NCBI RefSeq assembly: GCF_018734325.1
Contig: NZ_CP073754.1
Span: 3,410,001 to 3,474,000 of the forward strand
From: Methylomonas paludis
GTDB taxonomy: Bacteria; Pseudomonadota; Gammaproteobacteria; Methylococcales; Methylomonadaceae
Reading direction: 5' to 3'
Length of the DNA: 64,000 nucleotides
Under the pieces are notes generated by a model that was not told the origin of the DNA, did no database searches, and saw nothing but the letters and a program-made list of their open reading frames with translations. Numbering within the stretch: the first letter of the stretch is position 1; the number at the start of each line of letters is the position of its first letter. Of this stretch, positions 14,848-29,472 are shown piece by piece. The translations under genes and the position numbers were made by a program.

Positions 14848-16089
14848 TCATTGTATGACAGCTATCCGCCATTGCTTTGCGGCTTGGGGGGACTGCTCTG
14901 TCCATAAGGCCAGCCAACCGGATGCTGTTGCGACTATGCGCGGATGGCTGGCGACAGTACCCGGCGTAGAAAGCTGCCGGGCAGGTGACCAATCACCACC
15001 TTGATTTTTGGAATCCGCCAGCAAAACCGTTGATCCGGTCGGTTCCAGGGCATCCCAGACCCCAGCAAGCCGGTTCCGGCCATTTGCGGCAATATCGCTA
15101 TGGAATGCCGGTGTTCCGGCTGCCAGCGGCATGGGCCGACTCCAGCTTTTTCCGTTATCCGCCGATTGCAGGTAATACAAACCCACCTGATTATCCGCAC
15201 CGGTCCACACCACACTATGCAGCATGCCATCAGGCCCCTGACTCAAGCCGCCACCGTTATGCGGACAACCGTCAAACTGCCAGTTAAATTCACCCACATT
15301 ACTGATGCGCTGCCAACTGGCGCCGCCATCACTTGATTGGGCCAAAGCCATATCACGCGGCTGCATATCCCGATACAACACATTGATCTGGCCGGTGGCT
15401 GATACTGCCAGCCGGTTCCAACAACAGGAACAACTGGAAGCATCTATGGTTTGCGCCAATTCCCAATGCCCGCCGGCATCGCTGCTGCGGGCATAGCGTA
15501 ACCCCTGATAACCATTTTCATCCCTGTCATCCAGCCAGACCAGATGAAACCGGCCCTGGACATCGGCAATCAGATCAGGATGGGATTGATCGGTATCACT
15601 ACTGCCTGGATTACTGCCCTGTTGCCAGCTTATCCCGCCATCCAGGGAATAAATGGCGACCAAAGGCCCCATACCCGGCAATTCACCGGTGGTTTGCCAG
15701 ACAGCCAGTACTGTGGAACCGGCTACCGCCAACTGAATGTCATTACCCTGCCGGGACTCCACCGCCAAATTAAACTGACTGCCAACCTCCGTAGGCACCG
15801 ACCAGTGTAAACCTCCATCTTCGGAATGCAGATAGCCAATAAAAGGATGCTTGGGATCAGCGGCGGCAGCGGTAAAAATGGCATGCAGTTTTGGGCCTTC
15901 TGCATATATATCAAAGCCGGTGATATTTTGCTGCTGCAGGGCTTGGGCAGGAAGAGGGTTGAGCACCTGAATTTGCAAGTCTGTGGCCGGCAGAGTCGGT
16001 TCGCCCTGCTCGGAACACGCCGCACAAACACTTAGCAAGCCAGCTAACAGCAGCAATCGAGTCGATTTGTAAAGCGTCAAGGCAGACAT
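14848..16089 (-). CDS. BNR-repeat (sialidase-fold) lipoprotein
   Basis: About 413 residues from the ATG at 16089. The lipobox-like AACSEQG follows the signal peptide. The mature protein has repeated Asp-box (SxDxGxxW) motifs: SEDGGLHWS, SLDGGISWQ, SSDAGGHWE, SSDGGASWQ and SADNGKSWS, which mark a six-bladed beta-propeller. True sialidase catalytic residues were not recognised, so enzymatic activity is doubtful and a binding or scaffold role is as likely. A CSCCWNR motif in the third blade is notable as a possible metal site. It lies just upstream of copC and downstream of lspA on the same strand. Confidence 0.72.
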   Translation of the reverse strand: MSALTLYKSTRLLLLAGLLSVCAACSEQGEPTLPATDLQIQVLNPLPAQALQQQNITGFDIYAEGPKLHAIFTAAAADPKHPFIGYLHSEDGGLHWSVPTEVGSQFNLAVESRQGNDIQLAVAGSTVLAVWQTTGELPGMGPLVAIYSLDGGISWQQGSNPGSSDTDQSHPDLIADVQGRFHLVWLDDRDENGYQGLRYARSSDAGGHWELAQTIDASSCSCCWNRLAVSATGQINVLYRDMQPRDMALAQSSDGGASWQRISNVGEFNWQFDGCPHNGGGLSQGPDGMLHSVVWTGADNQVGLYYLQSADNGKSWSRPMPLAAGTPAFHSDIAANGRNRLAGVWDALEPTGSTVLLADSKNQGGDWSPARQLSTPGTVASHPRIVATASGWLALWTEQSPQAAKQWRIAVIQ

Positions 16090-16120
16090 TGCAAGGCTCG
16101 CTGGGAAAAATGGACAGTGA

Positions 16121-16597
16121 TTATAGCGGCTGCGCTGGTTTTTGCCCAAAACCAAAACTATCCAGCAACATCAGAGCCACTCCCACACAGATGGCTGAAT
16201 CGGCAATATTGAATGCCGGCCAATGCCAGTTTTGATAATACACATCCAGAAAGTCGATGACATAACCGTATAGCAATCTATCGATCAGATTACCGATGGC
16301 ACCGCCAAGTATCAACGCCAATGCTGCCGCCAGCCAGGTTTGCTGGCGGCTAAGTCTAGCCAGCCAGATGGCAATAATAGAGCTGATCACAATCGCCAGC
16401 GCCGCGAACAGCCAGCGTTGCCAACCGCCGGCCTGACTCAGAAAGCTGAAAGCAGCGCCGGCATTATGCACATAAGTTAAATTGAAAGAAGGCAATAGCC
16501 CAATCGACTCAAACAATTGCATATGGCTATCTATCGCCAGCTTGCTGGCCTGATCCAACACCAAAACCAGTGCCGACAACCATAGCCATTTAAGCAT
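16121..16597 (-). CDS. lspA: Lipoprotein signal peptidase (signal peptidase II)
   Basis: 158 residues from the ATG at 16597. Four transmembrane helices are visible. The catalytic Asp residues lie in GNLIDRL and FNIADS, together with the conserved N-terminal DQASK and [10 protein letters not shown] motifs. It cleaves diacylglyceryl-modified prolipoproteins in the inner membrane. The start overlaps the end of ileS by eight bases, as in the widely conserved ileS-lspA operon. The frame is open further upstream, but those codons lie inside ileS. Confidence 0.96.
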
Positions 16598-19421
16598 AAT
16601 GACGCACCTCACCATCCCCCACCACATTTTCCACGCAACGGCCACACAGTTCTGGATGGTCCGGGTTCAGACCAATATCCGGACGTTGATGCCAGCAGCG
16701 CACACATTTTGGCTGTGCAGAAACCCGTACTTTAAGTTTAACGCCGTCCAGTTCAGTGACCACGGCATCAGCCGGACTATCCTGCCAATCATACAAGCTG
16801 GTTTTGGAAGTAATGAACACAAAATGCAATTCATCCGCCAATTTGCCCAGTTCACTGGTATAGGTTTCATCACAATACAAGTCTACCTCGGCATTCAGCG
16901 ATGCGCCAATTTCACCTTTGCTGCGCAATTGCTCCAGTTCTTTACTGACTACGGTACGCACAGCAATAATCCGCTCCCAGGTCGAGACATTGATCACGGC
17001 ATCTGCTGCCAGTGGAACCAAACCGGTATACCAGGTTTCCAAAAATACTGATGCGCTACGCTGACCGGGAATGACACGCCAGATCTCTTCGGCAGTAAAA
17101 CTGATGATAGGCGCCAGCCACCGTACCAAGGCTTCAATGACATGATACATGGCAGTTTGCGCAGAACGCCGAGCCAATCCGTCATGCTTGGCGGTGTACT
17201 GGCGATCTTTAACGATATCCAGATAAAAACCACCCAAATCGATACTGCAAAAATTCAGCACTTTTTGATAAATGTTTTGAAACTGGTAGGTCTGATAAGC
17301 TTCCTGAATTTCTATCTGCAATAACCAAGCTTTATCCACCACCCAGGCATCCAGGGCCAACAAGTCCTCGGCAGCCACCAGATGCTGGGCAGGATCAAAA
17401 CCATCCAGATTGGACAACAGGAAGCGGGCTGTATTACGCAAACGCCGATAACCATCGGCGGTCCGTTTTAGAATTTCATCGGATACCGACATTTCACCAC
17501 GATAATCGGTACCGGCCACCCATAAACGCAGCACATCGGCACCCAGCGATTTCATCACGGTTTGCGGCAGCACCACATTGCCCTTGGACTTGGACATTTT
17601 TTTGCCTTCCGCGTCCACGGTAAATCCGTGAGTCAGTACTTCTTTATAGGGTGCAACGCCGTGCATGGCGACTGAAGTCATTAGTGATGACTGGAACCAG
17701 CCGCGATGCTGATCCGAGCCTTCCAGATACAAATCTGCCGGAAACTGCAATTGTGGGCGCCGGGCCAGTACCGCCGCATGAGTCACACCGGAATCGAACC
17801 AGACATCCAGGGTGTCGGTGATTTTTTCATAGTCTTCAGCTTCGCCGCCCAGCAATTCAGCCGCATCAAGTTCAAACCAGGCATCAATGCCCTGCTGCTC
17901 AATACGCAATGCCACTTGTTCTATCAGTTCGGCGCTACGGGGATGCAATTCGCCGGTTTCCTTATGCACAAAAAATGCAATCGGCACACCCCAGGTGCGT
18001 TGCCGGGAAATACACCAGTCTGGACGATGGGCTATCATGCTTTCAATTCGCGCCTGACCCCAATCAGGGATCCAGGCAACATTTTTCACCTCGGCCAAGG
18101 CAGTGTCCCGCAACTGGTTTTTCTCCATGGCGATAAACCATTGCGGGGTAGCCCGGAAAATAATCGGCGTCTTGTGCCGCCAGCAATGCGGATAACTATG
18201 CAGCAAGGCTTCATGGTGGACTAGTTTGCCGTGCTCCCGCAATACTTCCAGCACCTTGTCGTTGGCGCTGAATACATGCAGACCGGCAAACAGTTCGGTG
18301 CTGGGTAAAAACACACCGTTATTACCGACCGGATTATCCACAAGCAGATTATATTTCAGGCCGACCACATAGTCTTCCTGACCATGGCCAGGAGCGGTAT
18401 GTACCGCGCCGGTACCGGCATCGGTAGTAACGTGATCGCCCAGGATAATCGGCACTTGCCGGTCATAAAACGGATGTTGCAGCAGCAGATGTTCCAAGGC
18501 ATTGCCGGTGCAATAACCCACCACATGATGATCACCTATGCCGTAACGCAGCACCACGCTTTTCAGCAAGGCTTCGGCTACCACCAGACGTTCGCTATGA
18601 CCGTCGATTTCACACTGCACTACCACATATTCCAGTTCCGGGTTCAAGGCCACGGCCTGATTGGCCGGCAAAGTCCACGGCGTGGTAGTCCAGATCACTA
18701 CCGATAACGGACCTTTGCCTTCATGCTCCAAGGCATGATGACAGGCCGCCATAAAGGCATGTTCGTCCACTACCTGAAAACGCACATCGATGGCTGGAGA
18801 GCGTTTGTCCTCATACTCTACTTCTGCTTCGGCCAGGGCCGAACCGCAATCGGTACACCAATGCACCGGCTTGGCGCCTTTATGTAAATGGCCGTTAGCG
18901 GTGATTTTGCCCAAGGACCGGACAATGTCGGCTTCAAAACTGAAATCCATGGTCAGATAAGGGTTATCCCAATCGCCTAATACCCCCAGCCGCACGAACT
19001 CTTGCTTCTGGATATTGACCTGTTTTTTGGCATAAGCCCGGCATTCCTGCCGAAACTGTGCAGGGGTAACCTTTACGCCGGCCTTGCCCACGGTTTTTTC
19101 CACCATCAGCTCAATCGGCAAGCCGTGGCAATCCCAACCCGGCACATAAGGCGCATCGAAACCACTCAGGGTTTTGGATTTGACGATAATATCCTTTAAA
19201 ACCTTATTCACGGCATGGCCGATATGAATCGCACCATTGGCGTAGGGAGGGCCATCATGCAACACAAACTTGGGCCTACCGGCACAGATTTCTCTGATTT
19301 TTTGGTAAAGTTGTTGCTCTTGCCACTGGTTTAAAATCTCGGGTTCGCGCTGGGCCAGATTGGCTTTCATGGCAAACTCGGTCTTTGGTAGGTTTAATGT
19401 CTGTTTATAATCTATGGTCAT
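16590..19421 (-). CDS. ileS: Isoleucyl-tRNA synthetase
   Basis: About 943 residues from the ATG at 19421 ([16 protein letters not shown]). It charges tRNA-Ile with isoleucine. The class I signatures HIGH (as [10 protein letters not shown]) and KMSKS ([10 protein letters not shown]) are present, as is the editing-domain region with the [12 protein letters not shown] and [15 protein letters not shown] motifs. The C-terminal zinc-binding Cys pairs CVRCW and CGRC complete the bacterial-type enzyme. An open frame continues 15 codons upstream but does not resemble the family. It is coupled to lspA downstream. Confidence 0.97.
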
Positions 19422-19636
19422 GATGTTGTGCGCGCCGCGTTCCCGGTTAAACCAGAGTCTAGACACAATAAAATGTGCTGTTTAGCCGTATGATTTTGAA
19501 AGATAAATCAAAAACAGGGGATTTTACCATTAAACCGCTGAAAAGCCTTAGCATGAGTGATTTAATCCGCTGAAAATTGCCGAATAATGCTCTAAGTAAA
19601 AACCTGCAACTGTTTTAAAAAAGCTATGTTTGGGTA

Positions 19637-20030
19637 AATGGTTGATTTTGGTTCATGCAGTACAGGGCATAGTTGAATCCCGCTGACCCTGCTTTGATTA
19701 AGGCTAGGCTGCGAACCCCTCGATTCCACTACGTTGCATCGAGGCTACGGGTCGCGATGATGCCGGCTATGGTTGCCGGTTGCGCAGGGTGTTTTTGGGG
19801 ATAGCTAAACACCAAACAGCCTAGAAGTTTTGGCGGTGCAGAACCTAGTTGAATTCCGCTGCCCTGCTTTGATTAAGGCTACGCTGCGAACCCCTCGATT
19901 CCACTACGTTGCATCGAGGCTACGGGTCGCGATGATGCCGGCTATGGTTGCCGGTTGCGCAGGGTGTTTTTGGGATAGCTAAACACCCTAGAAGTTTTGG
20001 CGGCTTGCCTGGCGGCGAAGCCACCCTTGG
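19637..20030. repeat. Structured intergenic repeat, two tandem copies (downstream of the DGR reverse transcriptase)
   Basis: Two direct copies with a period of about 175 bp (for example GCTTTGATTA at 19691 and again at 19866). Each contains CCTCGAT...ATCGAGG, GCCGGCTATGGTTGCCGGTT and a block with GGGTGTTTTT(G)GGATAGC. The second copy ends in a strong hairpin, GGCTTGCCTGGCGGCGAAGCC. Further copies lie at 23707, 23932, 24060 and 39795. The gene-free stretch 19422-20133 holds nothing else that was recognised. Confidence 0.8.
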
Positions 20031-20133
20031 CTATTTGCATTTGGCCAGCACGATTTGGTCATGAAGGTTCATTAATGGGGTTTGCTCGGACTCCAGTCAG
20101 CAAAATAGCTAACTGCTTTTCTATATCTGCGTG

Positions 20134-21666
20134 TTAGGTACTTTTAGCGTCAGCAGATTGTTTGCCAGCCAATCCAATCCAGCGCTCCGCCGGTCGTCTG
20201 CATTTTACGCCGCCAGCCGATAATCCATCCCGTTCAGTTACCCACAGTACCTGCCGCCCCTCTGCCAGCAGCCGCTTAGCCAGATGGGTTCCCCAGGAGA
20301 GCGGTACCCCAAAGCGTGCGCCGCGCCGGTTTTTTTTGAGTGGTTTCAAGCCCAAGGATACGGCTAGGCCATCATAGGCCGGGTGATAAAATTCGTAATA
20401 ACAGCCTACTTGAAACAATAGCACATCGCCCGAAAATTGTTTGTTTAGCCAATGGTTTTGGCGGCGGGCAGAAGAAAACTGTTTGGGGAGTTCATAAAGC
20501 GGTTGTAAGGCCAGAAAGGTGCTATCAATCCGAAAATACTGGTGTAAAAATGAAAAATCGTGCCAGATACTTTTGCGCAAGTCAAAACTGTCGGCATGGC
20601 TTAAATGACCAAGATAGGAGGCCAGCGTTGACCGGCATTGCGCCAGCAGATCTGCATCAAAACGATAAATGGTATATTCTGGTTGCTGCTGAACCATCAA
20701 ACGTGCAAAATCGAGCAATTTACTGCGCAGATTATTGACGACCCGCCGCCTGACCAGTCTATAATCGGCACGGACGATATAGCCTAAAAAATCCACACCA
20801 TTGCCGACCGGTCTTAACTTATCGCGGTTATCGTTCAGCGCCAGTAATAACTTTTCCGCTAAAAACCGCCTAATCTGTTCATGCCAGACCACCAGTTGTT
20901 CAGGATTGGTATCCAGCAGCACAAAATCGTCGCAATAACGCAGATAATAACGGCATTTGAGTTGATGTTTAACAAACTGATCCAGACAATTCAGATAGAC
21001 ATTGGCAAAAAACTGGCTGTTGAGATTACCAATGGGCAGACCTTTACCGGCTTCACTTTGTAGCAGGCTTTTGTGTGGCGGCATGTGCTGCAACAAGCCG
21101 GGTTTGCCTTTATAGCTATAGTGGGCGGTACAATCATGAAACACCAGTAATTTACATAACCAGAGCACTTCCGGACTGTCAATATGCGGTTTTAATAAAG
21201 ACCACAACAAGTGCTTATCAATACGCATGAAATAATTGCGCACATCCAGTTGCAGATAGTAGGCCCGCCGCTTGCCGTTCCCAGATGCGCTACGGATAAA
21301 CTGTGTCAGACGATCTACCGCTTTGTGAATGCCTTTATCTTGTCGACAGGCATAGGAATCATGAATAAATACCGACTCCCAGTAGCGTTCCAGTTCGTGC
21401 ACCAGCACATGATGGACGATGCGATCCCGAAAATCGGCGGCGAATATTTCCCGTAGTTTCGGGCGTTCAGTAACAAAACAGACAGACGCGGATGGGCGAT
21501 AGCTGCGATCTTGCAGCGCCGCCGACAGTTCCAGCAGATTCAGTTCCTGTCTAGCTTCAAAACGCAAGGCGTTAAAGGTATTGCGTTTGTGTCTGCGGCA
21601 TAATAGATAATGCTGATACAGACTGGCGAAGCTGAACAGTTCTAGGTGTTGCTCAAAAGCGATCAT
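20134..21666 (-). CDS. Diversity-generating retroelement reverse transcriptase with C-terminal MutS-domain-I-like extension
   Basis: 510 residues from the ATG at 21666, which has GGAGA four bases upstream. The RT core spans about residues 60-320. It has a catalytic Asp at 141 (LQLDVRNYF), the DGR-diagnostic IGNLNSQ at 212-218 (other RTs have a QG-type motif here) and YCDD at 244-247, plus VDFLGYIV. In the family, this enzyme copies template RNA with adenine-specific infidelity into the variable repeat of a target gene. Residues ~411-480 resemble the N-terminal mismatch-recognition domain of MutS (VLLFQVGCYYEFY against the GDFYELF motif; GVPLSWGTHLAKRLLAEGR), with Tyr replacing the wedge Phe and the Glu kept. 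The open frame extends to 21687 inside the template repeat, but the later ATG is better placed. Confidence 0.95.
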   Translation of the reverse strand: MIAFEQHLELFSFASLYQHYLLCRRHKRNTFNALRFEARQELNLLELSAALQDRSYRPSASVCFVTERPKLREIFAADFRDRIVHHVLVHELERYWESVFIHDSYACRQDKGIHKAVDRLTQFIRSASGNGKRRAYYLQLDVRNYFMRIDKHLLWSLLKPHIDSPEVLWLCKLLVFHDCTAHYSYKGKPGLLQHMPPHKSLLQSEAGKGLPIGNLNSQFFANVYLNCLDQFVKHQLKCRYYLRYCDDFVLLDTNPEQLVVWHEQIRRFLAEKLLLALNDNRDKLRPVGNGVDFLGYIVRADYRLVRRRVVNNLRSKLLDFARLMVQQQPEYTIYRFDADLLAQCRSTLASYLGHLSHADSFDLRKSIWHDFSFLHQYFRIDSTFLALQPLYELPKQFSSARRQNHWLNKQFSGDVLLFQVGCYYEFYHPAYDGLAVSLGLKPLKKNRRGARFGVPLSWGTHLAKRLLAEGRQVLWVTERDGLSAGGVKCRRPAERWIGLAGKQSADAKST

Positions 21667-21669
21667 TCT

Positions 21670-21799
21670 CCGGGGCTGACTGCCCATGCATAAATCTGGT
21701 TGTTCTTATTGTTGTTGTTCTGGTTGCCGTTGTTGGTATTGAAGTTCCATGCGTTGTTAGGATTGGACGCATACTCCGTACCAGACCAGTACGCATAGG
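21670..21799 (-). repeat. DGR template repeat (TR)
   Basis: About 130 bp matching the variable repeats of both target genes (22542-22671 and 24394-24523). Read on the minus strand it is full of AAC/AAT (Asn) codons, the usual form of a DGR template. Homology stops at CCCCGG, three bases before the RT start codon. In the 86 bases 21685-21770, hand alignment gives 13 differences from VR1, 11 of them at template adenines, and 23 from VR2, 19 of them at adenines. The two non-adenine differences at 21690 and 21729 are shared by both VRs, so the template itself probably changed there. Confidence 0.95.
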
Positions 21800-21954
21800 C
21801 CGACGCATAGCCTGTTTACTTTATGGTTGCAAAACAACCCACTGTTTGGAAATCCGCTTCAGCGGTATTCCGCACTGTATGGTCATACCCGGTAAACCGG
21901 GTGAAACAGGCGCACAATGATACAACTCGGCTCGCTGTGCTGACGATTTTACGG
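21800..21954 (-). ncRNA. Template-RNA leader region with hairpins between avd and TR
   Basis: A non-coding gap between the avd stop and the template repeat. It contains two tight inverted repeats, CCGCT-TC-AGCGG (21854-21865) and CCCGGT-AA-ACCGGG (21888-21901), plus GCTGAC...GTCAGC near the avd end. DGR template RNAs have functional flanks around TR in studied systems; assigning that role here is inference. Confidence 0.45.
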
Positions 21955-22341
21955 TCAGCGCATTCTGGCGCTTTTGTCCGGCTTTTTCTGCGGGGACTGA
22001 CTTTGGCTTTTCAGCCAGCCCTCGTTCTGTCTGCAAACTTTTGCCGTCAGTTCCACGACGTGGCTGTAGGCATTAAAACTTTTGAAAGCCTGGGCTTCCT
22101 TGGCTATCCTGACTAATAACAGCAGTTCTTCAAGTTGATCGCGCAAGGTGCCTAAAGCCTGCTGTTTATCACTTTGGTTATTGGCCTGGATAATCAGGGT
22201 TACGGTTTTACGGCTGGCATTGCGTAGCTCACTACCCAGGGTGTATTTGTGGTAACGGCTAAAATTGGCGACGATTTTTTCAAAATGCACCGCCAGATTT
22301 AAGGCATCGCGGTAAATCGGCAGGTGTTCGTAACGCGCCAT
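21955..22341 (-). CDS. avd: DGR accessory variability determinant (Avd-like four-helix protein)
   Basis: 128 residues, all-helical. The opening YEHLPIYRDALNLAVHFEKI, followed by SRYHKYTLGSELRNASRK, is typical of the Avd / 23S-intervening-sequence-protein fold. In the Bordetella phage DGR, Avd forms a pentameric barrel that binds the RT and template RNA and is required for retrohoming. The C-terminal tail is basic (KSQSQSPQKKPDKSARMR), consistent with nucleic-acid binding. The ATG follows AAGGAAAGGA, a strong ribosome-binding site. Its position between target gene and TR-RT is the classical DGR order. Confidence 0.92.
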   Translation of the reverse strand: MARYEHLPIYRDALNLAVHFEKIVANFSRYHKYTLGSELRNASRKTVTLIIQANNQSDKQQALGTLRDQLEELLLLVRIAKEAQAFKSFNAYSHVVELTAKVCRQNEGWLKSQSQSPQKKPDKSARMR

Positions 22342-22379
22342 TCCTTTCCTTAAGCTAGCAGACTGACCATTACCCCAAA

Positions 22380-22409
22380 AAAAATCTCAAGGGGGCTATC
22401 GCCCCCTTG
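22380..22409 (-). terminator. Strong Rho-independent terminator after DGR target 1
   Basis: On the minus strand, a perfect 9-bp stem CAAGGGGGC / GCCCCCTTG with a 4-base loop is followed by AGA and eight T. It lies 36 bases after the stop of target gene 1 and only ~46 bases before avd. It should separate target transcription from avd-TR-RT, although read-through could still set their ratio. Confidence 0.88.
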
Positions 22410-22444
22410 ACCCCCAAAAGGGTCGAATCACCCTAATAATCGAA

Positions 22445-23185
22445 TTACCCAATGTTGCCGCGTCGCTTTAAGCCAAGATAACCTAACAAGCCAGTGCCAA
22501 ACAACCAGATTATATTGGGTTCCGGCACGGCGGCAACATTGCCGGGGCTGACTGCCCATGCGTAAAACTGGTTGAGCTTACTGGTGTAGTTCTGGTTGCC
22601 ACTGTAGGTATTGAAGTTCCATGCGTAGTAAGGAGTGGACGCATACTCCGTACCAGACCAGTACACAGAGGCTTGAACATTGCTGAACGGGCCTGAGGGG
22701 ATGGAGCTGCCTGCTGTGCCACCCAGTTCGTTGTAAAACAGTTCACCTAGCTGACTGCTGGTTTGGTTGTAACCAATTGATGCATCGTTATCTGGAGTGG
22801 TGGGTAAAGCCCAATGACTGGAACCAGCGTAATGCTGGGTATCCAGGTAATTCACAAAAGCCTGCCCAGCCCACCAGTCTACCGTGCCGCCATTGCCGAA
22901 ATCCGCAGCAGTCAGGGTGTAAGTGCCATTATCATAAGCATTGGGGGTGTCATGAATCACGCCGCCGCTGGCATTGATGATGGCAGTCACAATATTAGTG
23001 TAGCTGGTAGATTGATAAGCCCCTTCCCAAGTGCCTAATAGATTGGCGTCCTGGGTCCAGGTGGCATTGAGGCCGCTGTCGTAAATCCCTAAACCACCGG
23101 CGGTGGTGGTCAATGTAGCTTGGGCATTGAGGCTGGTGAGACTGAACAGCAGGCTGGCAGTCAATAAAGTTTTTCCGTGTGGCAT
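22445..23185 (-). CDS. DGR target protein 1: lectin-like (DUF1566/Lcl-type) variable protein with PEP-CTERM signal
   Basis: 246 residues. A signal peptide to about residue 24 is followed by a C-type-lectin-like domain of the DUF1566 kind (SHWALPTTPDNDASIG, VYWSGTEYA). The variable repeat covers about residues 172-215. Template Asn codons appear here as Tyr, Ser, Thr, Leu or Asn (for example STPYYAWNFNTYSGNQ). The C-terminus is a PEP-CTERM signal: VPEP, a hydrophobic helix and KRRGN, predicting processing by an exosortase and surface or matrix attachment. The ATG follows AAGGAG. Ligand unknown. It is a close paralogue of the gene at 24297. Confidence 0.92.
   Translation of the reverse strand: MPHGKTLLTASLLFSLTSLNAQATLTTTAGGLGIYDSGLNATWTQDANLLGTWEGAYQSTSYTNIVTAIINASGGVIHDTPNAYDNGTYTLTAADFGNGGTVDWWAGQAFVNYLDTQHYAGSSHWALPTTPDNDASIGYNQTSSQLGELFYNELGGTAGSSIPSGPFSNVQASVYWSGTEYASTPYYAWNFNTYSGNQNYTSKLNQFYAWAVSPGNVAAVPEPNIIWLFGTGLLGYLGLKRRGNIG
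22531..22544. repeat. Perfect hairpin at the 3' end of VR1
   Basis: CGGCAA-CA-TTGCCG, a 6-bp perfect inverted repeat, touches the 3' boundary of the variable repeat of target 1. The same sequence lies at 24383-24396 after VR2. Studied DGRs need a hairpin or cruciform just after VR for homing; here it also encodes Gly-Asn-Val-Ala before the PEP motif. Confidence 0.6.
22542..22671 (-). repeat. DGR variable repeat VR1 in target 1
   Basis: Aligns without gaps to the template repeat at 21670-21799. The invariant 3' part TACGCATGGGCAGTCAGCC, then CCGG, is the probable initiation of mutagenic homology. It differs from the template by T-to-C at the TTTAT/TTTAC codon. Adenine-site substitutions are concentrated in the Asn-codon tract. 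Confidence 0.93.
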
Positions 23186-23285
23186 GTATTACTCCTTAGC
23201 GTTTATGTTTCAGTTTGTTAGTGACTAGGCACGACATTTGAAACCTCCAGCGCTAGGTTGGTCTCTAGACTTAAGCACACTTCTA
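23186..23285 (-). promoter_or_regulatory. Conserved ~100-bp upstream block of DGR target 1
   Basis: The region immediately before target 1, with the ribosome-binding site AAGGAGTAATAC, is nearly identical to that before target 2 (25041-25137). The two genes were therefore duplicated with their leader. It contains CAGCGCTGGAGGTTTCAAA on the coding strand. No clear -35/-10 pair was recognised. Confidence 0.5.
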
Positions 23286-23301
23286 TATAAGTTAAGTTAT
23301 A

Positions 23302-23382
23302 GCTAGGGGCTAGGGGCTAGGGGCTAGGGGCTAGGGGCTAGGGGCTAGGGGCTAGGGGCTAGGGGCTAGGGGCTAGGGGCTA
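23302..23382. repeat. (GGGGCTA)n tandem heptamer repeat, about 11.5 units
   Basis: 81 bases of uninterrupted perfect GGGGCTA units on the plus strand, G4-runs separated by three bases. This is an ideal G-quadruplex former with a C-rich complement on the target-gene coding strand. It lies ~115 bases upstream of DGR target 1. Copy number is expected to vary by slippage. Target 2 has no such tract upstream. Confidence 0.97.
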
Positions 23383-23522
23383 ATTGTACGCATTTTAAAA
23401 ATAGCATATTGCCCGCTATTAATCAATCCTTTTTTATGACCTGTTTTGCCTCTTACTACCCTAACAGGACTGCAGGGCGGGTTAGAAATGCACCAGATGC
23501 CCTTGCCGATCTAATTCGTAGC

Positions 23523-23627
23523 CTAGTGGTTGACCAACATTACTTTGACGGCAGCGCTAGAGTATGTAACGACTCTGAAAGGCATGGTTCGCGATTGATG
23601 CGCATCACTGCGTTCAGCACTTCCTAA
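23523..23627. repeat. MITE-like repeat, copy C (right end missing)
   Basis: Begins CTAGTGGTTGACCAACATTA and continues through the shared core GATGCGCATCACTGCGTTCAGC. It then loses similarity after CACTTCCTA, so the right terminal repeat has been deleted or replaced. It lies between the G-rich heptamers and the structured repeats, in the 1.1-kb gene-free gap 23186-24296. Confidence 0.65.
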
Positions 23628-23706
23628 AAACGGCACAAGACCGTATAACATAGCCTCGATGTAGCTACGCGGATCTAGGGTGCAGGTATCAAGTTGCTTT
23701 GGCTTC

Positions 23707-24290
23707 ATGCGGTACGGGACATAGTTGAATTCCGCTGACCTTACTTTGATTAAGGCTAGGCTGCGAACCCCTCGATTCCACTACGTTGCATCGAGGCTAC
23801 GGGTCGCGATGATGCGGGTTATGGTTGCCCGATAGCTAAACACTCTGTACTTGCGAAATTTTGGTGGCTTGCCTGGCGGCTAAGCCACCCTACTGGCGGT
23901 CGTTTTGATTAAGGTTATGTTGGTGTTTGCAGTTGATTTTGGTTGAAGCGGTGATTGGCATTGGTGAAGTCTGCTGACGCTGGTTTGATTAAGGCTGCAC
24001 TGCGAATTCCTCGATTCCACTGCGTTGCATCGAGGCTACGGGTGGCTTTGATTAAGGCTGTGTTTGTGTTGATAGCTGATTTTGGTTGAAGCGGTGGTGG
24101 GCATTGGTGAATTCCGCTGACGCTGGTTTGATTAAGGCTGCGCTGCGAATTCCTCGATTCCACTGCGTTGCATCGAGGCTACGGGTGGCGATGATGCCGG
24201 CTATGGTTGCCGGTTGCGCTGGGTGTTTTTGGGATAGCTAAACACCCTAGAAGTTTTGGCGGCTTGCCTGGCGGCGAAGCCACCCTACAT
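23707..24290. repeat. Structured intergenic repeats, three partly tandem copies between the two DGR targets
   Basis: Copies begin near 23707, 23932 and 24060. They share GATTAAGGCT, CTCGATTCCACT, GTTGCATCGAGGCTACGG and, in the first and last, a terminal hairpin GGTGGCTT...AAGCCACC or GGCGGCTT...AAGCCACC. The middle copy is shortened. Open frames here are by-products of the repeat. The last copy ends directly after the target 2 stop. Confidence 0.8.
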
Positions 24291-24296
24291 GACTAA

Positions 24297-25040
24297 TTAC
24301 CCAATGTTGCCGCGTCGCTTTAAGCCAAGATAACCTAACAAGCCAGTGCCAAACAACCAGATTATATTGGGTTCCGGTACGGCGGCAACATTGCCGGGGC
24401 TGACTGCCCATGCGTAAAACTGGATGACCTTACCGTTGAGGCCCTGGTTGCCATCGCCGGTATCGAAGCCCCATGCGTAGTGAGGATCAGCCGCATACTC
24501 CGTACCAGACCAGTACGCATAGGATTGCACATTGCTGAACGGGCCTGAAGGAATTGAACTGCCCGCTGTGCCACCCAGTTCGTTGTAAAACAGTTCACCT
24601 AGCTGACTGCTGGTTTGGTTGTAACCAATTGATGCATCAATTTCGGGAGTCGTGGGCAAGGCCCAATGGCTGGAGCCGCCGTAATGCTGGATATCCAGGT
24701 AATTTACAAAGGCAAGACCAGCCCACCAGTCTACCAGGCCGCCACTGCCGAAATCCGCAGCACTTAAGGTGTAGGTTCCGGTGGGATCAAAACCATTGGG
24801 AGTGTCATGAACCACGCCGCCGCTGGCATTGATAATGGCGGTGACTATATTATTGTAGCTGGTGGATTGATATGCGCCTTCCCATGTACCTATCAGATTG
24901 GCATCCTGGGTCCAGGTGGCATTGAGGCCGCTGTCGTAAATTCCTAAACCGCCGGCGGTGGTGGTTAAGGTGGCGTTGGCATTGAGACCGGTGAGACTGA
25001 GCAGCAGGCTGGCGGTCAATAGAGTTTTTCCGTGTGGCAT
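24297..25040 (-). CDS. DGR target protein 2: lectin-like variable protein with PEP-CTERM signal
   Basis: 247 residues; paralogue of target 1, with about 17 differences in the first ~183 residues, about 16 in the ~45-residue variable region and none in the last ~33. Same layout: signal peptide, DUF1566-like lectin fold (SHWALPTTPEIDASIG, YWSGTEYA), VR at about residues 173-215, and PEP-CTERM tail. In VR2, template Asn codons appear as Asp, His, Tyr, Gly, Leu, Val or Ile (for example AADPHYAWGFDTGDGNQ). VR2 is further from the present template than VR1, suggesting more or older rounds of diversification. The ATG follows AAGGAG. Confidence 0.92.
   Translation of the reverse strand: MPHGKTLLTASLLLSLTGLNANATLTTTAGGLGIYDSGLNATWTQDANLIGTWEGAYQSTSYNNIVTAIINASGGVVHDTPNGFDPTGTYTLSAADFGSGGLVDWWAGLAFVNYLDIQHYGGSSHWALPTTPEIDASIGYNQTSSQLGELFYNELGGTAGSSIPSGPFSNVQSYAYWSGTEYAADPHYAWGFDTGDGNQGLNGKVIQFYAWAVSPGNVAAVPEPNIIWLFGTGLLGYLGLKRRGNIG
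24383..24396. repeat. Perfect hairpin at the 3' end of VR2
   Basis: The same CGGCAA-CA-TTGCCG inverted repeat as at 22531-22544, again abutting the end of the variable repeat. The template repeat lacks it: there the homology ends at CCCCGG and the RT gene begins. This matches the usual DGR rule that the downstream structure marks the recipient and not the template. Confidence 0.6.
24394..24523 (-). repeat. DGR variable repeat VR2 in target 2
   Basis: Gapless alignment to the template repeat. In the 86 compared bases, 19 of 23 differences are at template adenines. The four others are the two shared with VR1 plus two inside one codon (TCC in the template, GCT here). The 5' boundary matches the template further out (CCTATGCGTACTGG) than VR1 does. 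Confidence 0.93.
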
Positions 25041-25137
25041 GTATTACTCCTTAGCGTTTATGTTTCAGCTTGTTAATGACTGGGTACGACATTTGAAACC
25101 TCCAGCGCTAGGCTGGTCTCTAGATTGAAGTACGCCT
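25041..25137 (-). promoter_or_regulatory. Conserved upstream block of DGR target 2
   Basis: Near-identical counterpart of 23186-23285, with the same AAGGAGTAATAC ribosome-binding site. Similarity to the target 1 leader ends near the CTCTAGA string, after which target 1 leads to the G-rich repeat and target 2 to a MITE-like copy. The rest of 25138-25445 holds no gene. Confidence 0.5.
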
Positions 25138-25146
25138 ATAGTTAAG

Positions 25147-25303
25147 TATAGGCCAATGTATATTGACGGATGATTACCCATTGGGCCACCCAATCTTATT
25201 AGGTGCCAACTCTGGAAGCGTATCGTGCGCGATTGATGCGCATCACTTCGTTCAGCACATCCTCCGCGGTATCCGTCAATATAACATTGGTGGACTATTA
25301 GGG
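25147..25303. repeat. MITE-like repeat, copy D (divergent)
   Basis: The left end is degraded (GGCCAATGTATATTGACGG). The core GATGCGCATCACTTCGTTCAGC and the right end CCGTCAATATAACATTGGTG, then GACTATTAG, are clear. An extra TACCCATTGGGCCACCCAA segment sits in the left half. Confidence 0.55.
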
Positions 25304-25445
25304 CTTATTAGCACTATTTTAGGTAGCTAGTCAACATTAGCATATGGCCGGCCACTTATCAAAGTTATATGGCCTTTTTAGAGTGGGGTTGATGGGGTGT
25401 GCGCCGCTAACCCGCCCAACGTTGAGTAGCTACAAGTTTTCTTGC

Positions 25446-26240
25446 TTAAAGCATTTTGCCGAAAATCGACATACCAATTTCCACGGCAATCAGCCAGATA
25501 ATGATCCATTCCAAAATGGATGAATGCAGATGCTTTTGCTCATCTGCCAGCATTTCCAACAATTCATGTATGGTTTCCAGTTTTTTAGACAACACATCGG
25601 TACGCTGACGAATTTCCAGATAATTGGCCGCCAAAGAATAAATACCCTGGTATTCGGGGTGTTCCCAAAAAAACTCTGGGGTATCCAGCAGGTCATAATT
25701 AAGAATGATGTCACTTTTGGTCAAAAACAGCTGACCGCGAATTTTTGCCATGGCCTTGCGGTTAAGTTTGATTTTACCATCCCGCGCCAGGGATTCCGGC
25801 AAATGGCTGGTGGCGTGTATGGTATCGATGGCATTGCCTTCGAAGGCCGCCAGTTTAATGGATTGAGCCATGGCATGAGACATGGCCAGCAGCACTTTGA
25901 CATCCCCGGAGCGTAACTCGATATGATCATGCTGAAACCGGTCGTGCTCACAGCCGATTTCATAACTAAAATTATCTTCCTGGGGATTACTGTCAGGTTT
26001 TACTGCATATTCCAGCAATAAGGCCTGCAAGGCGCGACGTTCATCCAGGCTGATATTCCAGTGCACCACGACACCATAGGAAAACACGATAGAACAGCCA
26101 TCCTTATAATCCAGGATCAAAGCATTTCTGAATACCTGGGCACGAGTGGTATCCAGCAATTTTTCCCGCAATTCCGGAAAACGGAAAGATTGCGCCAAAC
26201 ACACAGTCAGACAGTGATTAATTGCTCGATTCTGTGACAT
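25446..26240 (-). CDS. RMD1/YagE (DUF155) family protein
   Basis: 264 residues, single C-terminal transmembrane helix (WIIIWLIAVEIGMSIFG). The pattern VFRNALILDYKDGCSIVFSYGVVVHWNIS, and later LFLTKSDIILNYDLLDTPEFFWEHPEYQGIY followed by EIRQRTDVLSKKLETIHELLEML, is diagnostic for the DUF155/RMD1 family (COG1723). Mitochondrial relatives (RMND1) support translation; the bacterial role is unknown. The ATG follows GGAGTAGATCAAT. It is a single gene between the DGR region and aroG. The upstream gap 26241-26620 holds only a degenerate fragment of the MITE core (26332-26371). Confidence 0.85.
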   Translation of the reverse strand: MSQNRAINHCLTVCLAQSFRFPELREKLLDTTRAQVFRNALILDYKDGCSIVFSYGVVVHWNISLDERRALQALLLEYAVKPDSNPQEDNFSYEIGCEHDRFQHDHIELRSGDVKVLLAMSHAMAQSIKLAAFEGNAIDTIHATSHLPESLARDGKIKLNRKAMAKIRGQLFLTKSDIILNYDLLDTPEFFWEHPEYQGIYSLAANYLEIRQRTDVLSKKLETIHELLEMLADEQKHLHSSILEWIIIWLIAVEIGMSIFGKML

Positions 26241-26620
26241 ATTGATCTACTCCAGACCTTAAAAACAAAAGCTAATCGTAATTATTCCGTGCAACATTGT
26301 ATTAGCCTTTTTTAACAATTGGTTAGCCTGAAAATGATGCACTACGCTGCGTTTAGTACATCCTTCGACTACCTGTTTTTCAAGGGATACTTGGACACTG
26401 AATAGCATAATAATCGGCTAAAGCCGCAAGTCGGGCCGAAGAAACAATGTGTTTCTTAAGAGAGTTACAGCTAATCCACTATTACCGCGCTGATGGCTCT
26501 CTGCCACCCTGACCAAACCGTCCGAAAACAAAATTTGATAGGCAAGAGATAACACCACTGCTGTAAAACAGTTAAAATGCTCGTTTATACCATTAATTTC
26601 AGAACATATTACCCTGTGTC

Positions 26621-27694
26621 ATGCCAAGCAACTATAACACCGATGATTTAAGAATATGCGAAACCAAAGAAGTGGTTGCCCCGATTCAGGTTCACGATGA
26701 AATTCCCATGACTGAAACGGCTGCGGCGACTATTTTAAAAACTCGCGCTGCCATACACAATATTCTAAACGGTACAGATGACCGTTTGCTGGTGGTGATA
26801 GGCCCTTGTTCGATTCACGATCCTCAGGCCGCCGTGGAATACGCCAAACGGATTAAACAGATCAGTGATAGCTTACAGGCTGACCTGCTGATTGTGATGC
26901 GGGTTTATTTTGAAAAACCCCGTACCACAGTGGGCTGGAAAGGTTTAATCAACGATCCCGATCTGAACTCAAGTTTTGACATTAACAAAGGCTTGCGTCT
27001 GGCCCGTCAGGTATTGCTTGATGTCAACAATCTAGGGGTACCGGCTGCTACCGAATATCTGGATTTAATCACGCCGCAATATGTTTCCGATCTGATTTCC
27101 TGGGGTGCCATCGGTGCCAGAACCACCGAAAGCCAGGTGCACCGGGAATTGGCTTCAGGCCTGTCCTGTCCGGTAGGCTTTAAAAATGCCACTGACGGCG
27201 GCATTAAGATTGCCATAGACGCGATTAATGCGGCAATGAGTCCACACCATTTTCTCTCGGTAGCCAAAGACGGCAAATCGGCGATTTTTTCCACCCGTGG
27301 CAACGAAGATGTCCACATTATCCTCAGAGGCGGCAACAACCGGCCTAATTATGATGAGGTCAGTGTAGACCAGGTGGCGGAAGGCCTGCAAAAAGCCGGC
27401 TTACCCGCCAATATCATGATTGATTTCAGTCATGCCAATTGCCAGAAAAAATTCGAACGCCAAATGCATGTGGCCCAGGATGTGGCCGGACAAATCGCCA
27501 ACGGCGATATCCGCATCATCGGCGCCATGGTTGAAAGCCATCTGGTGGCCGGTCGCCAGGATGTTGAAGAAGGCAAGCCGCTGGTTTTTGGGCAAAGTAT
27601 TACCGATGCCTGCCTGGGCTGGCAAGACAGCAGCAAATTATTAGACGATATGGCCGCAGCCGTTCGGCAGCGCCGCGCACACAGCAAGGTTTAA
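26621..27694 (+). CDS. aroG: 3-deoxy-7-phosphoheptulonate synthase, class I
   Basis: 357 residues. It condenses phosphoenolpyruvate and erythrose 4-phosphate to DAHP, the first step of the shikimate pathway. The family pattern is complete: VVIGPCSIHDPQAAVEYAKR, VMRVYFEKPRTTVGWKGL, GARTTESQVHRELASGLS, GFKNATDGG, FSTRGNEDVHIILRGG, MIDFSHANCQKK and MVESHLVAGRQ. Which aromatic amino acid inhibits it cannot be fixed from sequence by eye. It is followed after three bases by the thiS-thiG fusion, indicating co-transcription. Confidence 0.95.
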   Translation: MPSNYNTDDLRICETKEVVAPIQVHDEIPMTETAAATILKTRAAIHNILNGTDDRLLVVIGPCSIHDPQAAVEYAKRIKQISDSLQADLLIVMRVYFEKPRTTVGWKGLINDPDLNSSFDINKGLRLARQVLLDVNNLGVPAATEYLDLITPQYVSDLISWGAIGARTTESQVHRELASGLSCPVGFKNATDGGIKIAIDAINAAMSPHHFLSVAKDGKSAIFSTRGNEDVHIILRGGNNRPNYDEVSVDQVAEGLQKAGLPANIMIDFSHANCQKKFERQMHVAQDVAGQIANGDIRIIGAMVESHLVAGRQDVEEGKPLVFGQSITDACLGWQDSSKLLDDMAAAVRQRRAHSKV

Positions 27695-27697
27695 AGC

Positions 27698-28675
27698 ATG
27701 AAAATACAGGTCAATGGCGACAGCCGCGAATACGCGGAACACACAACTGTAGCCCAGGTAATAGCAGATTTGGGCTTGACCGGCAAACGTATTGCCGTGG
27801 AATTGAATAAAGAAATCCTGCCTTTTAACCAGCACAACAGCCAATACCTGCATGATGCTGATCGCCTGGAAATTGTTCAGGCCATTGGCGGCGGTCAAGC
27901 TGATTATTTTACTCTGGCCGGCAAACACTACACTTCGCGGTTACTGGTGGGTACCGGCAAGTATAAAGATCTGGAAGAAACCCGGCTGGCTATTGAAGCC
28001 AGCGGTGCTGAAATCGTCACCGTGGCTATCCGCCGTACCAATATCGGCCAAAACCCCGGTGAACCCAATCTGCTGGATGTAATATCGCCGGATAAATACA
28101 CCATCCTGCCCAATACCGCCGGCTGTTATACCGCTGATGAAGCGGTAAGAACCTGCCGTCTGGCAAGGGAACTGTTGGGTGGGCATAATCTGGTGAAACT
28201 GGAAGTGCTGGCCGATCAGTTAACCCTGTTTCCCGATGTGGCGGAAACCTTTGGCGCCGCTGAATTACTGGTTAAAGATGGTTTTGATGTCATGGTTTAT
28301 ACCAATGATGATCCTATAGCCGCCAAACGCTTGGAAGATATCGGCTGCGTAGCGGTGATGCCGCTGGCCGCGCCTATCGGTTCCGGGCTGGGTATCCGTA
28401 ACCCGTACAATATTTTGACTATCGTCGAAAACGCTAAAGTGCCGATTCTGGTGGATGCCGGCGTCGGCACGGCTTCTGATGCCGCCATTGCCATGGAATT
28501 GGGCTGCGACGGGGTTCTGATGAATACCGCGATTGCTGCCGCCAGAAACCCGGTGTTGATGGCTTCAGCCATGCGCAAAGGCATAGAAGCAGGCCGCGAA
28601 GCTTATCTGGCCGGCCGGATGCCGCGCAAACGCTTTGCCTCGGCTTCATCACCGATAGACGGTTTATTTTTATAG
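27698..28675 (+). CDS. thiSG: Fused sulfur carrier ThiS - thiazole synthase ThiG
   Basis: 325 residues. Residues 1-66 are ThiS ([20 protein letters not shown] ... IVQAIGGG) and the rest is ThiG, with [34 protein letters not shown], the Schiff-base Lys region [10 protein letters not shown] and [11 protein letters not shown]. ThiS normally ends in a free Gly-Gly that is adenylated and thiocarboxylated. Here a third Gly and then QADYF continue straight into ThiG with no stop, so free sulfur carrier would need cleavage or the chemistry must differ. ThiG forms the thiazole phosphate of thiamine. It lies three bases after aroG. Confidence 0.92.
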
Positions 28676-28706
28676 TCTTAACCGGACAACAGCCCTAGTT
28701 CCAGCA

Positions 28707-29396
28707 ATGCCAGACTCCTTAAAAATCGACCCGGCCAAAATCCGCAGCTTTATCCGTCGTCAAGGCCGGGCCACCGCCGGACAAAAGCAGGCCCTGGAAA
28801 CGCATTGGCAAAGCTATTGCCTGCCGATCTCAGCCGATTTTGATGCCGAACAGGTGTTTGGTCGCAGTGCGCCGCTGATTGTAGAAATCGGCTTTGGCAA
28901 CGGCAGCAGTCTGGCCGATATGGCGGCGGCCAATCCTGAGCTGAATTATCTGGGCATAGAAGTGCACCGACCTGGGGTGGGCCACCTGCTGATGTTACTG
29001 GCGGAGCGCAATATCAGCAATGTCAGGATTTACCATCATGATGCCATTGAAATTCTGGAACAAAAAATTCCTGATCACAGCATCAGCGGCGTGCACCTGT
29101 TTTTCCCCGACCCCTGGCAAAAACGCCGCCATCACAAACGCCGCATTGTCCGGCCCAGTTTTGTGGAATTGCTCAATCAAAAACTGCGAGTCGGCGGTTA
29201 TTTTCACGCGGCAACTGACTGGGCGCATTATGCCAAAGATATGCTGGGCATACTCTCTGCCGGCCAGGGTTTACAAAACAGCAGCCCCAGCCGGGACTAT
29301 TGCCCCCGCCCTGATTATCGGCCACTTACCAAGTTTGAAAACCGGGGCCTGAAATTGGGCCATGGGGTATGGGATTTGATTTTCCGGAAGATTTAA
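28707..29396 (+). CDS. trmB: tRNA (guanine-N7-)-methyltransferase
   Basis: 229 residues. SAM-dependent methylation of G46 in the tRNA variable loop. Visible motifs are the SAM-binding VEIGFGNGSSLADMA, YLGIEVHRPGVGHLL and the diagnostic FFPDPWQKRRHHKRRIV, with the terminal RPLTKFENRGLKLGHGVWDL. It is 31 bases downstream of thiSG and probably in the same transcript as aroG-thiSG. Confidence 0.95.
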   Translation: MPDSLKIDPAKIRSFIRRQGRATAGQKQALETHWQSYCLPISADFDAEQVFGRSAPLIVEIGFGNGSSLADMAAANPELNYLGIEVHRPGVGHLLMLLAERNISNVRIYHHDAIEILEQKIPDHSISGVHLFFPDPWQKRRHHKRRIVRPSFVELLNQKLRVGGYFHAATDWAHYAKDMLGILSAGQGLQNSSPSRDYCPRPDYRPLTKFENRGLKLGHGVWDLIFRKI

Positions 29397-29472
29397 CAGC
29401 TGCTATTATTCGCTCAGGGTACTCCGCAACCGGCCCCCTGATCCCCGGCAACCCACGGCAGGAACCCCAGGC

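Follow-up and report, generated by a model that had tools for sequence, protein, structure and literature searches.

A chromosomal diversity-generating retroelement in Methylomonas paludis with a covarying RNA element 5′ of its template repeat and a predicted MutS domain I on its reverse transcriptase

The 64,000-nt stretch of the Methylomonas paludis chromosome analyzed here (contig NZ_CP073754.1, positions 3,410,001 to 3,474,000; hereafter "the window," whose own numbering we use) contains a chromosomal diversity-generating retroelement (DGR). All of its parts lie on the minus strand, in the order target 2, target 1, avd, template repeat (TR), rt. The reverse transcriptase (RT; 517 aa, 20134..21687) matches RVT_1 (E 4.8e-15) and the PHROG RT family (342 bits, E 2e-101) and carries the motifs GLPIGNLNSQ and YCDD; an alternative ATG start at 21666 directly follows the TR, which spans 131 nt with 44 adenines (21670..21800). 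The accessory protein Avd (128 aa, 21955..22341) is recognized by Pfam bAvd (E 1.3e-14; 55 bits, cut-off 40), by the PHROG family "Avd protein of DGR" (E 4e-21), and, under that model's cut-off, by DivGenRetAVD (E 2.5e-11). Both target proteins have an Lcl_C domain and a variable repeat (VR) identified by its match to the TR: target 1 (246 aa, 22445..23185; Lcl_C E 6e-12) carries VR1 at 22542..22672, and target 2 (247 aa, 24297..25040; Lcl_C E 8.6e-13) carries VR2 at 24394..24524. An original prediction, made from the letters alone, had described a complete DGR with two target genes that was not a phage. Every part it named—targets with VR, Avd, TR, and an RT with IGNLNSQ and YCDD—is in its place, and the interpretation as a DGR is supported. 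The nonphage assignment also stands, as the locus sits on a single 3.67-Mb contig among housekeeping-type neighbors and phage RT matches are all below 60% identity. The count of two targets holds within the interval but not genome-wide, where three further VR-bearing paralogues occur (at 2.12, 0.27, and 1.58 Mb). That prediction contained neither the RNA element nor the MutS domain I, the PEP-CTERM signals, or the extra VRs described below.

What fills the gap between avd and the TR? This conserved noncoding stretch folds better than its shuffles (z −2.29, equaled by 4 of 200) and is filled by an RNA of about 112 nt (21810..21921), which recurs in eight DGRs, three of them outside the training set of the first model. 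RNAalifold was run on five sequences, cut by eye to place the P1 strands at the ends or close to them, and returned 29 pairs; two-sided compensation is seen in 12 of these. A fourth hairpin (P4) appears in single folds, outside the model. In what follows, G000 is the window's own genome, other G-numbers are other genomes, and L-numbers are loci (L098 from G507, L095 from G467, L030 from Thiohalocapsa marina, L077 from G000, L078 from G032); G032 and G022 are same-genus genomes, the G022 contig is also that of a Methylococcales metagenome-assembled genome (MAG), and the G175 contig is that of a gammaproteobacterial MAG. Across 29 sources, the first model (R1) found its five training loci and the untrained L098 (E 5e-15) and L095 (E 8e-11), with nothing else below E 8; phage BPP-1, three other phage RT loci, G038, G043, and the remote targets of the own genome gave no significant match. 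Over 398 genomes of the phylum, R1, run with filters under which weak matches are lost, matched only G000, G507, and G467. A second model that includes G507 and G467 (R2) gave matches in 2 of the 48 genomes searched from G467's class and in 3 of the 321 from the class of the window. These three draws overlap; between them they hold five distinct genomes with a match, two of which belonged to the training set, and all five matches lie beside a DGR TR. The new one, G216, has a DGR with an RT 46.5% identical to that of the window, an Avd, a TR preceded by the RNA at a distance of 3 nt, and two VRs, in which 19 of 21 and 20 of 26 differences fall at TR adenines.

The eight distinct rows were aligned by fitting them to the model, which favors it; 97.4% of their cells are paired versus 80.4% in shuffles, and 16 of the 29 pairs are compensated on both sides, with none of 500 shuffles as high. 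The covariation score is 0.628 versus 0.272 in shuffles, and slid structures pair at 29 to 51%. Every RNA-positive locus (8/8) has a TR, an Avd, and an RT, and seven of the eight RTs match the profile of MutS domain I, a co-occurrence that agrees with the proposal below, though imperfectly. An RNA match is absent from the G479, G491, and Thiorhodococcus loci (no Avd found in the available stretch) and from the Desulfobacter locus (no TR found). Rfam gave no gathering-score match over 15000-30000 and just two matches at E ≤ 10 (E 3.9 and 6.2) over 21400-22100; among the papers listed for DGR with RNA structure and covariation terms, none is a DGR study by its title. The element and its covariation are almost certainly real.

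How might this element relate to the template that it precedes? Its first six bases, AUCAUU (21916-21921), are complementary to AAUGAU in GGAGAAUGAU at the 3′ end of the TR. The two strands would form a long-range helix, P0, whose 3′ strand (GGAGAATGAT, 21662..21671) overlaps the alternative RT start codon. The complementarity is present in 8/8 loci; seven have the same strands, and G216 has ACCACU and AGUGGU, that is, two compensatory changes. In all eight, P0 is followed by a G-G opposition, a U-A pair, a second G-G opposition, and a C-G pair. The predicted pair probability of P0 is 0.67 to 1.0 in seven of the eight loci, against a mean of 0.03 to 0.06 for shuffled 3′ strands, of which 0 to 3 per 100 were as high. 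The 3′ strand starts from 10 nt before (G216) to 3 nt after (the window) the end of the TR/VR match as bounded by BLAST. The pairing very probably exists, and a role for it in cDNA priming is close to an even proposition, leaning slightly against.

The spacing around the TR is the reverse of that in the Bordetella phage BPP-1 DGR (mtd-avd-TR-brt, AY029185). There, the gap between avd and TR is 0 nt and the spacer between TR and RT is 144 nt; in the window the corresponding distances are 154 and 3 nt, the latter measured to an in-frame ATG of rt (another lies inside the TR). According to PMC12875486, the BPP-1 spacer folds, recruits the bRT-Avd complex, and primes cDNA synthesis. The window has no BPP-1-type structured spacer between TR and RT, given the ATG 3 nt after the TR and an RNA on the TR's other side, although a structure within the rt coding sequence is conceivable. 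Across the eight loci the avd-TR gap is 152 to 191 nt (561 in G507) and the RNA ends 3 to 13 nt before the TR. In six of them an in-frame ATG is found no more than 4 nt from the end of the TR; in G022 and Thiohalocapsa the rt frame is displaced at this point. This mirror arrangement, together with P0, suggests a variant DGR architecture in which the handle of the template RNA has moved to the 5′ side of the TR and is pinned back to it, a reading to which we give a probability of roughly 0.75. The element and the TR would then be one RNA, with the element as the handle bound by RT and Avd. P0 would fold it back onto the 3′ end of the TR, where reverse transcription would start and copy the TR with adenine errors; the mutated cDNA would replace the 3′ part of the target's Lcl_C domain, and an exosortase would put the variant proteins at the cell surface.

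The C terminus of the RT is, by profile and fold prediction, a MutS domain I (about residues 410-490; 20218..20460), with YYE at the place of the F-x-E mismatch motif. Seven of seven aligned family RTs match PF01624 at E ≤ 1 (best E 6.3e-13). The window RT's own score lies below the Pfam cut-off (14.9 bits for the full protein and 17.8 for the domain alone, versus 20.6), so the case rests on the relatives, the family profile, and the fold. That profile finds Taq MutS in the PDB (E 1.1e-10) and matches 321 of 369 genomes, where the matches listed are mostly open frames of MutS size. An AlphaFold model of the window domain has a mean pLDDT of 81, and all 50 listed Foldseek matches belong to the MutS family (best E 1.3e-4); the full-length RT model (mean pLDDT 58.8) was set aside in favor of this domain model. 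Against G032, dN/dS is 0.12 (0.12-0.13) for the domain core and 0.134 for the RT part. Within the family, the domain is split by a frame change in G022, and only its start is kept in the Desulfobacter latus RT. Weak matches to the profile are given by the RT C termini of G216 (28 bits), G491 (19), G479 (14), and G507 (14); that of G467 has none at E ≤ 1, even though G467 has the RNA element, which, like the subthreshold score of the window RT, counts against our overall reading. A profile comparison gave no support for reduced MutS domains I in the RT C-terminal extensions of G038 and G043.

MutS domain I also occurs in DGRs as a free protein. Genes for it adjoin avd in G467 (PF01624 E 8e-12) and G507 (2e-14), directly upstream at L095 6264-6656 and L098 2508-2843, and there the F of the mismatch motif is kept and the E replaced. 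We take the accessory name MSL to stand for MutS-like. PMC10053308 lists MSL (Pfam PF01624) as a known DGR accessory, of the same Pfam family as the domain described here, which forms the RT C terminus in the window and its close relatives. What may be new is thus the fusion to the RT, not the accessory itself; of the papers listed for DGR with MutS, judged by titles and abstract starts (and passages of one), none is about a DGR MutS-like protein.

Do the repeats bear the marks of a DGR, and is the system still active? Over 131 bases the TR is 89% identical to VR1 and 82% to VR2. VR1 is changed at 12 of 44 TR adenines versus 3 of 87 other sites (Fisher P = 1.3e-4) and VR2 at 19 of 44 versus 5 of 87 (P = 5e-7). 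No adenine bias was found in the flanks outside the VR (P = 0.80 and 0.87 upstream, in both directions, and 0.46 downstream, once), and neither VR has an A at any site where the TR has another base. Adenine-enriched differences in other genomes, which the original prediction had named as a check, are seen in four fused-RT relatives: G032 (17/46 adenine versus 1/89 other sites changed), G022 (17/47 versus 1/88), G175 (19/47 versus 1/92), and Thiohalocapsa marina (14/38 versus 2/86). The three remote paralogues, 73 to 85% identical to target 1, carry VR3, VR4, and VR5, which are adenine-biased (P = 0.01, 3e-4, and 9e-5) but have 11, 12, and 9 nonadenine differences, respectively; on these numbers we reject them as recently rewritten trans targets. 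The Lcl_C gene at 1.24 Mb, changed at 18 of 44 adenines versus 21 of 86 other sites (P = 0.04), is treated as a plain paralogue rather than a VR target. The window TR itself has a C in AACAACGGC; at this position T stands in all five VRs of its own genome and in the TRs of G032 and G022, and C in the TR of G175. A second site, near the 3′ end of the window TR, shows a T/C difference from both VR1 and VR2. Such mismatches mean that these positions were not copied from the present TR into the VRs; at the AACAACGGC position the present base is uncopied in all five, whichever side mutated.

How firmly can the pinned 5′ handle be held, and what else could the RNA be? The fullest version of our proposal is a DGR lineage with a circularly permuted, retron-like template RNA, in which the 5′ domain would recruit RT-Avd and supply the cDNA primer in place of a 3′ spacer, P0 would pin it to the TR 3′ end, the fused MutS domain I would recognize P0 or the mutated duplex, and folded template and RT message would exclude each other. 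We put it forward tentatively, as somewhat less probable than not. Several observations weigh against the architecture or parts of it. P0 varies in one of the eight loci, G216, on which its covariation rests, and there the strand lies 10 nt inside the BLAST TR/VR match; G467 has the P0 sequences and a predicted fold without P0 (probability 0). G043 and G038 have avd-TR gaps of 270 and 284 nt plus a TR-RT gap and no RNA match, which shows that layouts other than the mirror image of BPP-1 exist. Transcription, priming, protein binding, and retrohoming are steps predicted from sequence. The low divergence around the RNA and TR, finally, may partly reflect recombination. Between the window and G032 it is V-shaped, with a minimum of 1 to 4 differences per 100 around the RNA, TR, and rt start and about 20 to 25 per 100 some 1 kb away, and it rises smoothly and is much weaker against G022; synonymous divergence about three times higher in the MutS part than in the RT part suggests a mosaic history. 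We therefore keep this profile as an observation and not as proof of constraint, since recombination explains the smooth rise as well. We likewise set aside constraint on the early RT codons as proof of a 3′ RNA: over the first 60 codons the window differs from G032 at two nucleotides, and no comparable dip is seen against G022.

An unlikely alternative is that the DGR is an ordinary one and that the folded RNA acts outside the template machinery, as a leader that regulates the rt message by hiding the RT start codon. The P0 strand is AAUGAU in 7/8 loci, with its AUG in frame with rt in five, and the link between the RNA and cDNA synthesis is a predicted one. The same AUG enters our proposal as a reason why the folded template RNA would be a poor message for the RT. 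A leader of this kind fits poorly with G216, whose strand (AGUGGU) has no AUG yet keeps full complementarity, and with the element ending 3 to 13 nt before the TR in all eight loci; it would also leave no noncoding room for a BPP-1-like spacer, since the TR runs straight into rt. For the fused domain, the most likely task is to deal with a mispaired duplex, either the heteroduplex of adenine-mutated cDNA or the RNA element itself, with the two conserved G-G oppositions that follow P0. A narrower idea, that it protects the cDNA/VR heteroduplex against mismatch repair by sitting on mismatches while lacking the ATPase and MutL-binding regions of MutS, draws on Pfam reporting no MutS domain other than domain I in the 517-aa RT, on the purifying selection on it, and on the invariance of Y and E of the motif in 7/7 RTs (the first place is F in two and Y in five). 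We consider it rather doubtful. The free forms of G467 and G507 carry Q or H for E, and the diverged C termini of G467, G479, G491, and G507 lack the full motif; F-x-E is therefore not kept across the group, and tight mismatch binding is not known for MutS domain I alone. The state of the element in this strain has to be weighed as well. That it is a relic that no longer diversifies is a possibility that we take seriously but rate below its opposite. Its recent activity is doubtful, given the position where the TR differs from all five VRs at a nonadenine base and the 3 to 12 nonadenine differences per VR here versus one in each of G032, G022, and G175; another DGR of the same genome has already decayed. 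Yet RT, Avd, and both targets have open reading frames, dN/dS against G032 is low in both parts of the RT, the RNA element and its pairing are intact, and VR1 and VR2 still differ from the TR mainly at adenines. The "active-looking" label of the original prediction therefore holds only in part, given the nonadenine mismatches of the TR to its own VRs.

To which class does the RT belong, and how widespread are its relatives? The window motif GLPIGNLNSQ resembles GIPIGSLTSQ of the BPP-1 RT, while readable group II-type RTs of related genomes, so labeled from this motif, have QG...SP. In a tree read on 30 rows (row L012, a wrong frame without an RT motif, left out), whose columns take in part of the C-terminal domain in fused RTs, the seven readable group II-type rows form a clade with 100/100 support, separate from the DGR-type rows that include the window RT; the DGR class thus withstood the check. 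NCBIfam models for group II, retron, and DRT enzymes match far under their cut-offs, and the RT, with its DGR motif, is not of retron type by the only retron model listed (St85, 36 bits versus a cut-off of 235). The matching PADLOC models, for which no cut-offs exist, are those of general RT and DRT families, led by a plain RT model (132 bits). Among 101 genomes searched, own included, the closest RTs are those of G032 (88%) and G022 (77%). Others come from a Methylobacter MAG, a Methylococcales MAG, a gammaproteobacterial MAG, Thiohalocapsa marina, Thiorhodococcus mannitoliphagus, and Desulfobacter latus; the Methylobacter MAG (88% identity) is the nearest named relative and is the support for the methanotroph-like label. 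At E ≤ 1e-60 the RT is matched in 7 of 398 phylum genomes, drawn in the same way as those searched with R1. The window's neighbors ileS, lspA, the DUF155 gene, and aroG are absent from the 13 loci searched (three of them own-genome, several with short flanks), and in G032, where about 6 kb on each side lack them, the element must occupy a different chromosomal place. No locus was found on viral contigs; RT matches in plasmid (1777/1777) and phage (135/135) records are all below 60% identity, and the RNA-TR stretch matches neither phages nor plasmids. On the Thiohalocapsa marina contig (L030 1-2389 and 5891-8279), one target is enclosed by two copies of the avd-RNA-TR-rt unit that share 100% identity over 2389 bases; either a real duplication or an assembly effect would account for it.

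What is being diversified? In both targets an Lcl_C domain above its cut-off (a sequence-profile match) carries the VR and is followed by a PEP-CTERM sorting signal downstream of it (PF07589 above cut-off; 22460..22531 in target 1 and 24312..24383 in target 2). The VR covers residues 172-214 of target 1. Lcl_C is the former DUF1566 and presumably C-type lectin-like. PMC8934634 names DUF1566 among the common DGR targets. The own genome has nine PEP-CTERM matches and three exosortases, above the cut-offs of the XrtD, XrtB, and exosortase E models, and by these signals the targets look like sorted surface proteins. In relatives with a fused RT, the targets end in PEP-CTERM (over the Pfam cut-off in G022 and G175, under it in G032) or IPTL-CTERM (Thiohalocapsa); the 1.58 Mb paralogue has a PEP-CTERM match under the cut-off. 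Within the literature searches made, no paper joining diversity-generating retroelements with PEP-CTERM or exosortase was found. A decayed second DGR lies at G000 2119894-2120495 (L077), where an RT piece and a trace of the MutS domain I end stand beside an open VR-bearing PEP-CTERM target; the RT remnant (2119894-2120064) comprises 57 residues at 70% identity with one internal stop.

Phage DGRs have a hairpin after the VR with a 7-10 bp stem and a GRNA loop, according to PMC3240598. No hairpin of that type was found here. VR1, VR2, and VR4 are followed by a palindrome with a 5-bp stem and an ATGT loop (alternatively, 6 bp and a loop of 2 nt), and VR5 by a variant of 5 bp with another loop; G175 has a compensated form, and there is none at VR3, G032, or G022 within the stretch scanned. 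With the wrong loop and nothing at the same place in G032 and G022, we rejected it as a BPP-1-like hairpin.

The surroundings hold further repeats. A repeat with the core GTAGCCTCGATGCAACGNAGTGGAATCGAGG has 135 exact copies in the genome (62 forward and 73 reverse; the reversed control has 0), frequently grouped into short series. Of the first 100 listed places, those up to about 1.39 Mb mostly hold forward copies, and beyond that point reverse copies are more frequent. The DGR is flanked by related repeats (19613-19974 and 23665-24233). A tandem array of the 7-base unit CCCCTAG lies upstream of target 1 (23302-23396), and a short tandem array of another kind precedes the target in G022. A DUF155 gene of the RMND1/Sif2-Sif3 type adjoins the DGR at 25446-26240.

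How does this element compare with known systems? The definition and priming of DGR template RNA are known to us from essentially one phage system, with a 3′ structured spacer. A lineage with a 5′ covarying domain, no spacer, and a pairing that joins the ends would, if true, show which features of DGR templates are general, and the covariance model is available for finding and annotating such elements. A fused domain of the mismatch-sensor type makes it testable how adenine-mutated cDNA escapes or uses mismatch recognition, and the output suggested by the PEP-CTERM targets is a set of diversified surface proteins sorted by exosortase. Retrons resemble the window in that a structured RNA precedes the template on its 5′ side and a short helix ties the 5′ end of the RNA to the end of the template, as in their msr/msd layout and a1/a2 pairing; if true, our proposal would link DGR and retron template topologies. 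The window nonetheless has a TR/VR pair and an RT with the DGR motif, not the QG..SP of group II-type RTs. With BPP-1, for which adenine-specific mutagenesis is reported, the window shares the order target-avd-TR-RT (avd is annotated Bbp7) and the IG.L.SQ motif, although the BPP-1 RT, at 328 aa, is too short for a C-terminal MutS domain I. A similar setting is that of the DGRs of Thiohalocapsa PB-PSB1, as presented in PMC10907252: they, too, are chromosomal in a free-living host, with multiple and remote targets and degenerate extra loci. There, the targets are associated with conflict systems, and those at two loci agree with another locus's TR at every nonadenine site, which the authors read as trans activity; here, by contrast, the targets carry PEP-CTERM signals and the remote VRs have 9 to 12 nonadenine differences each.

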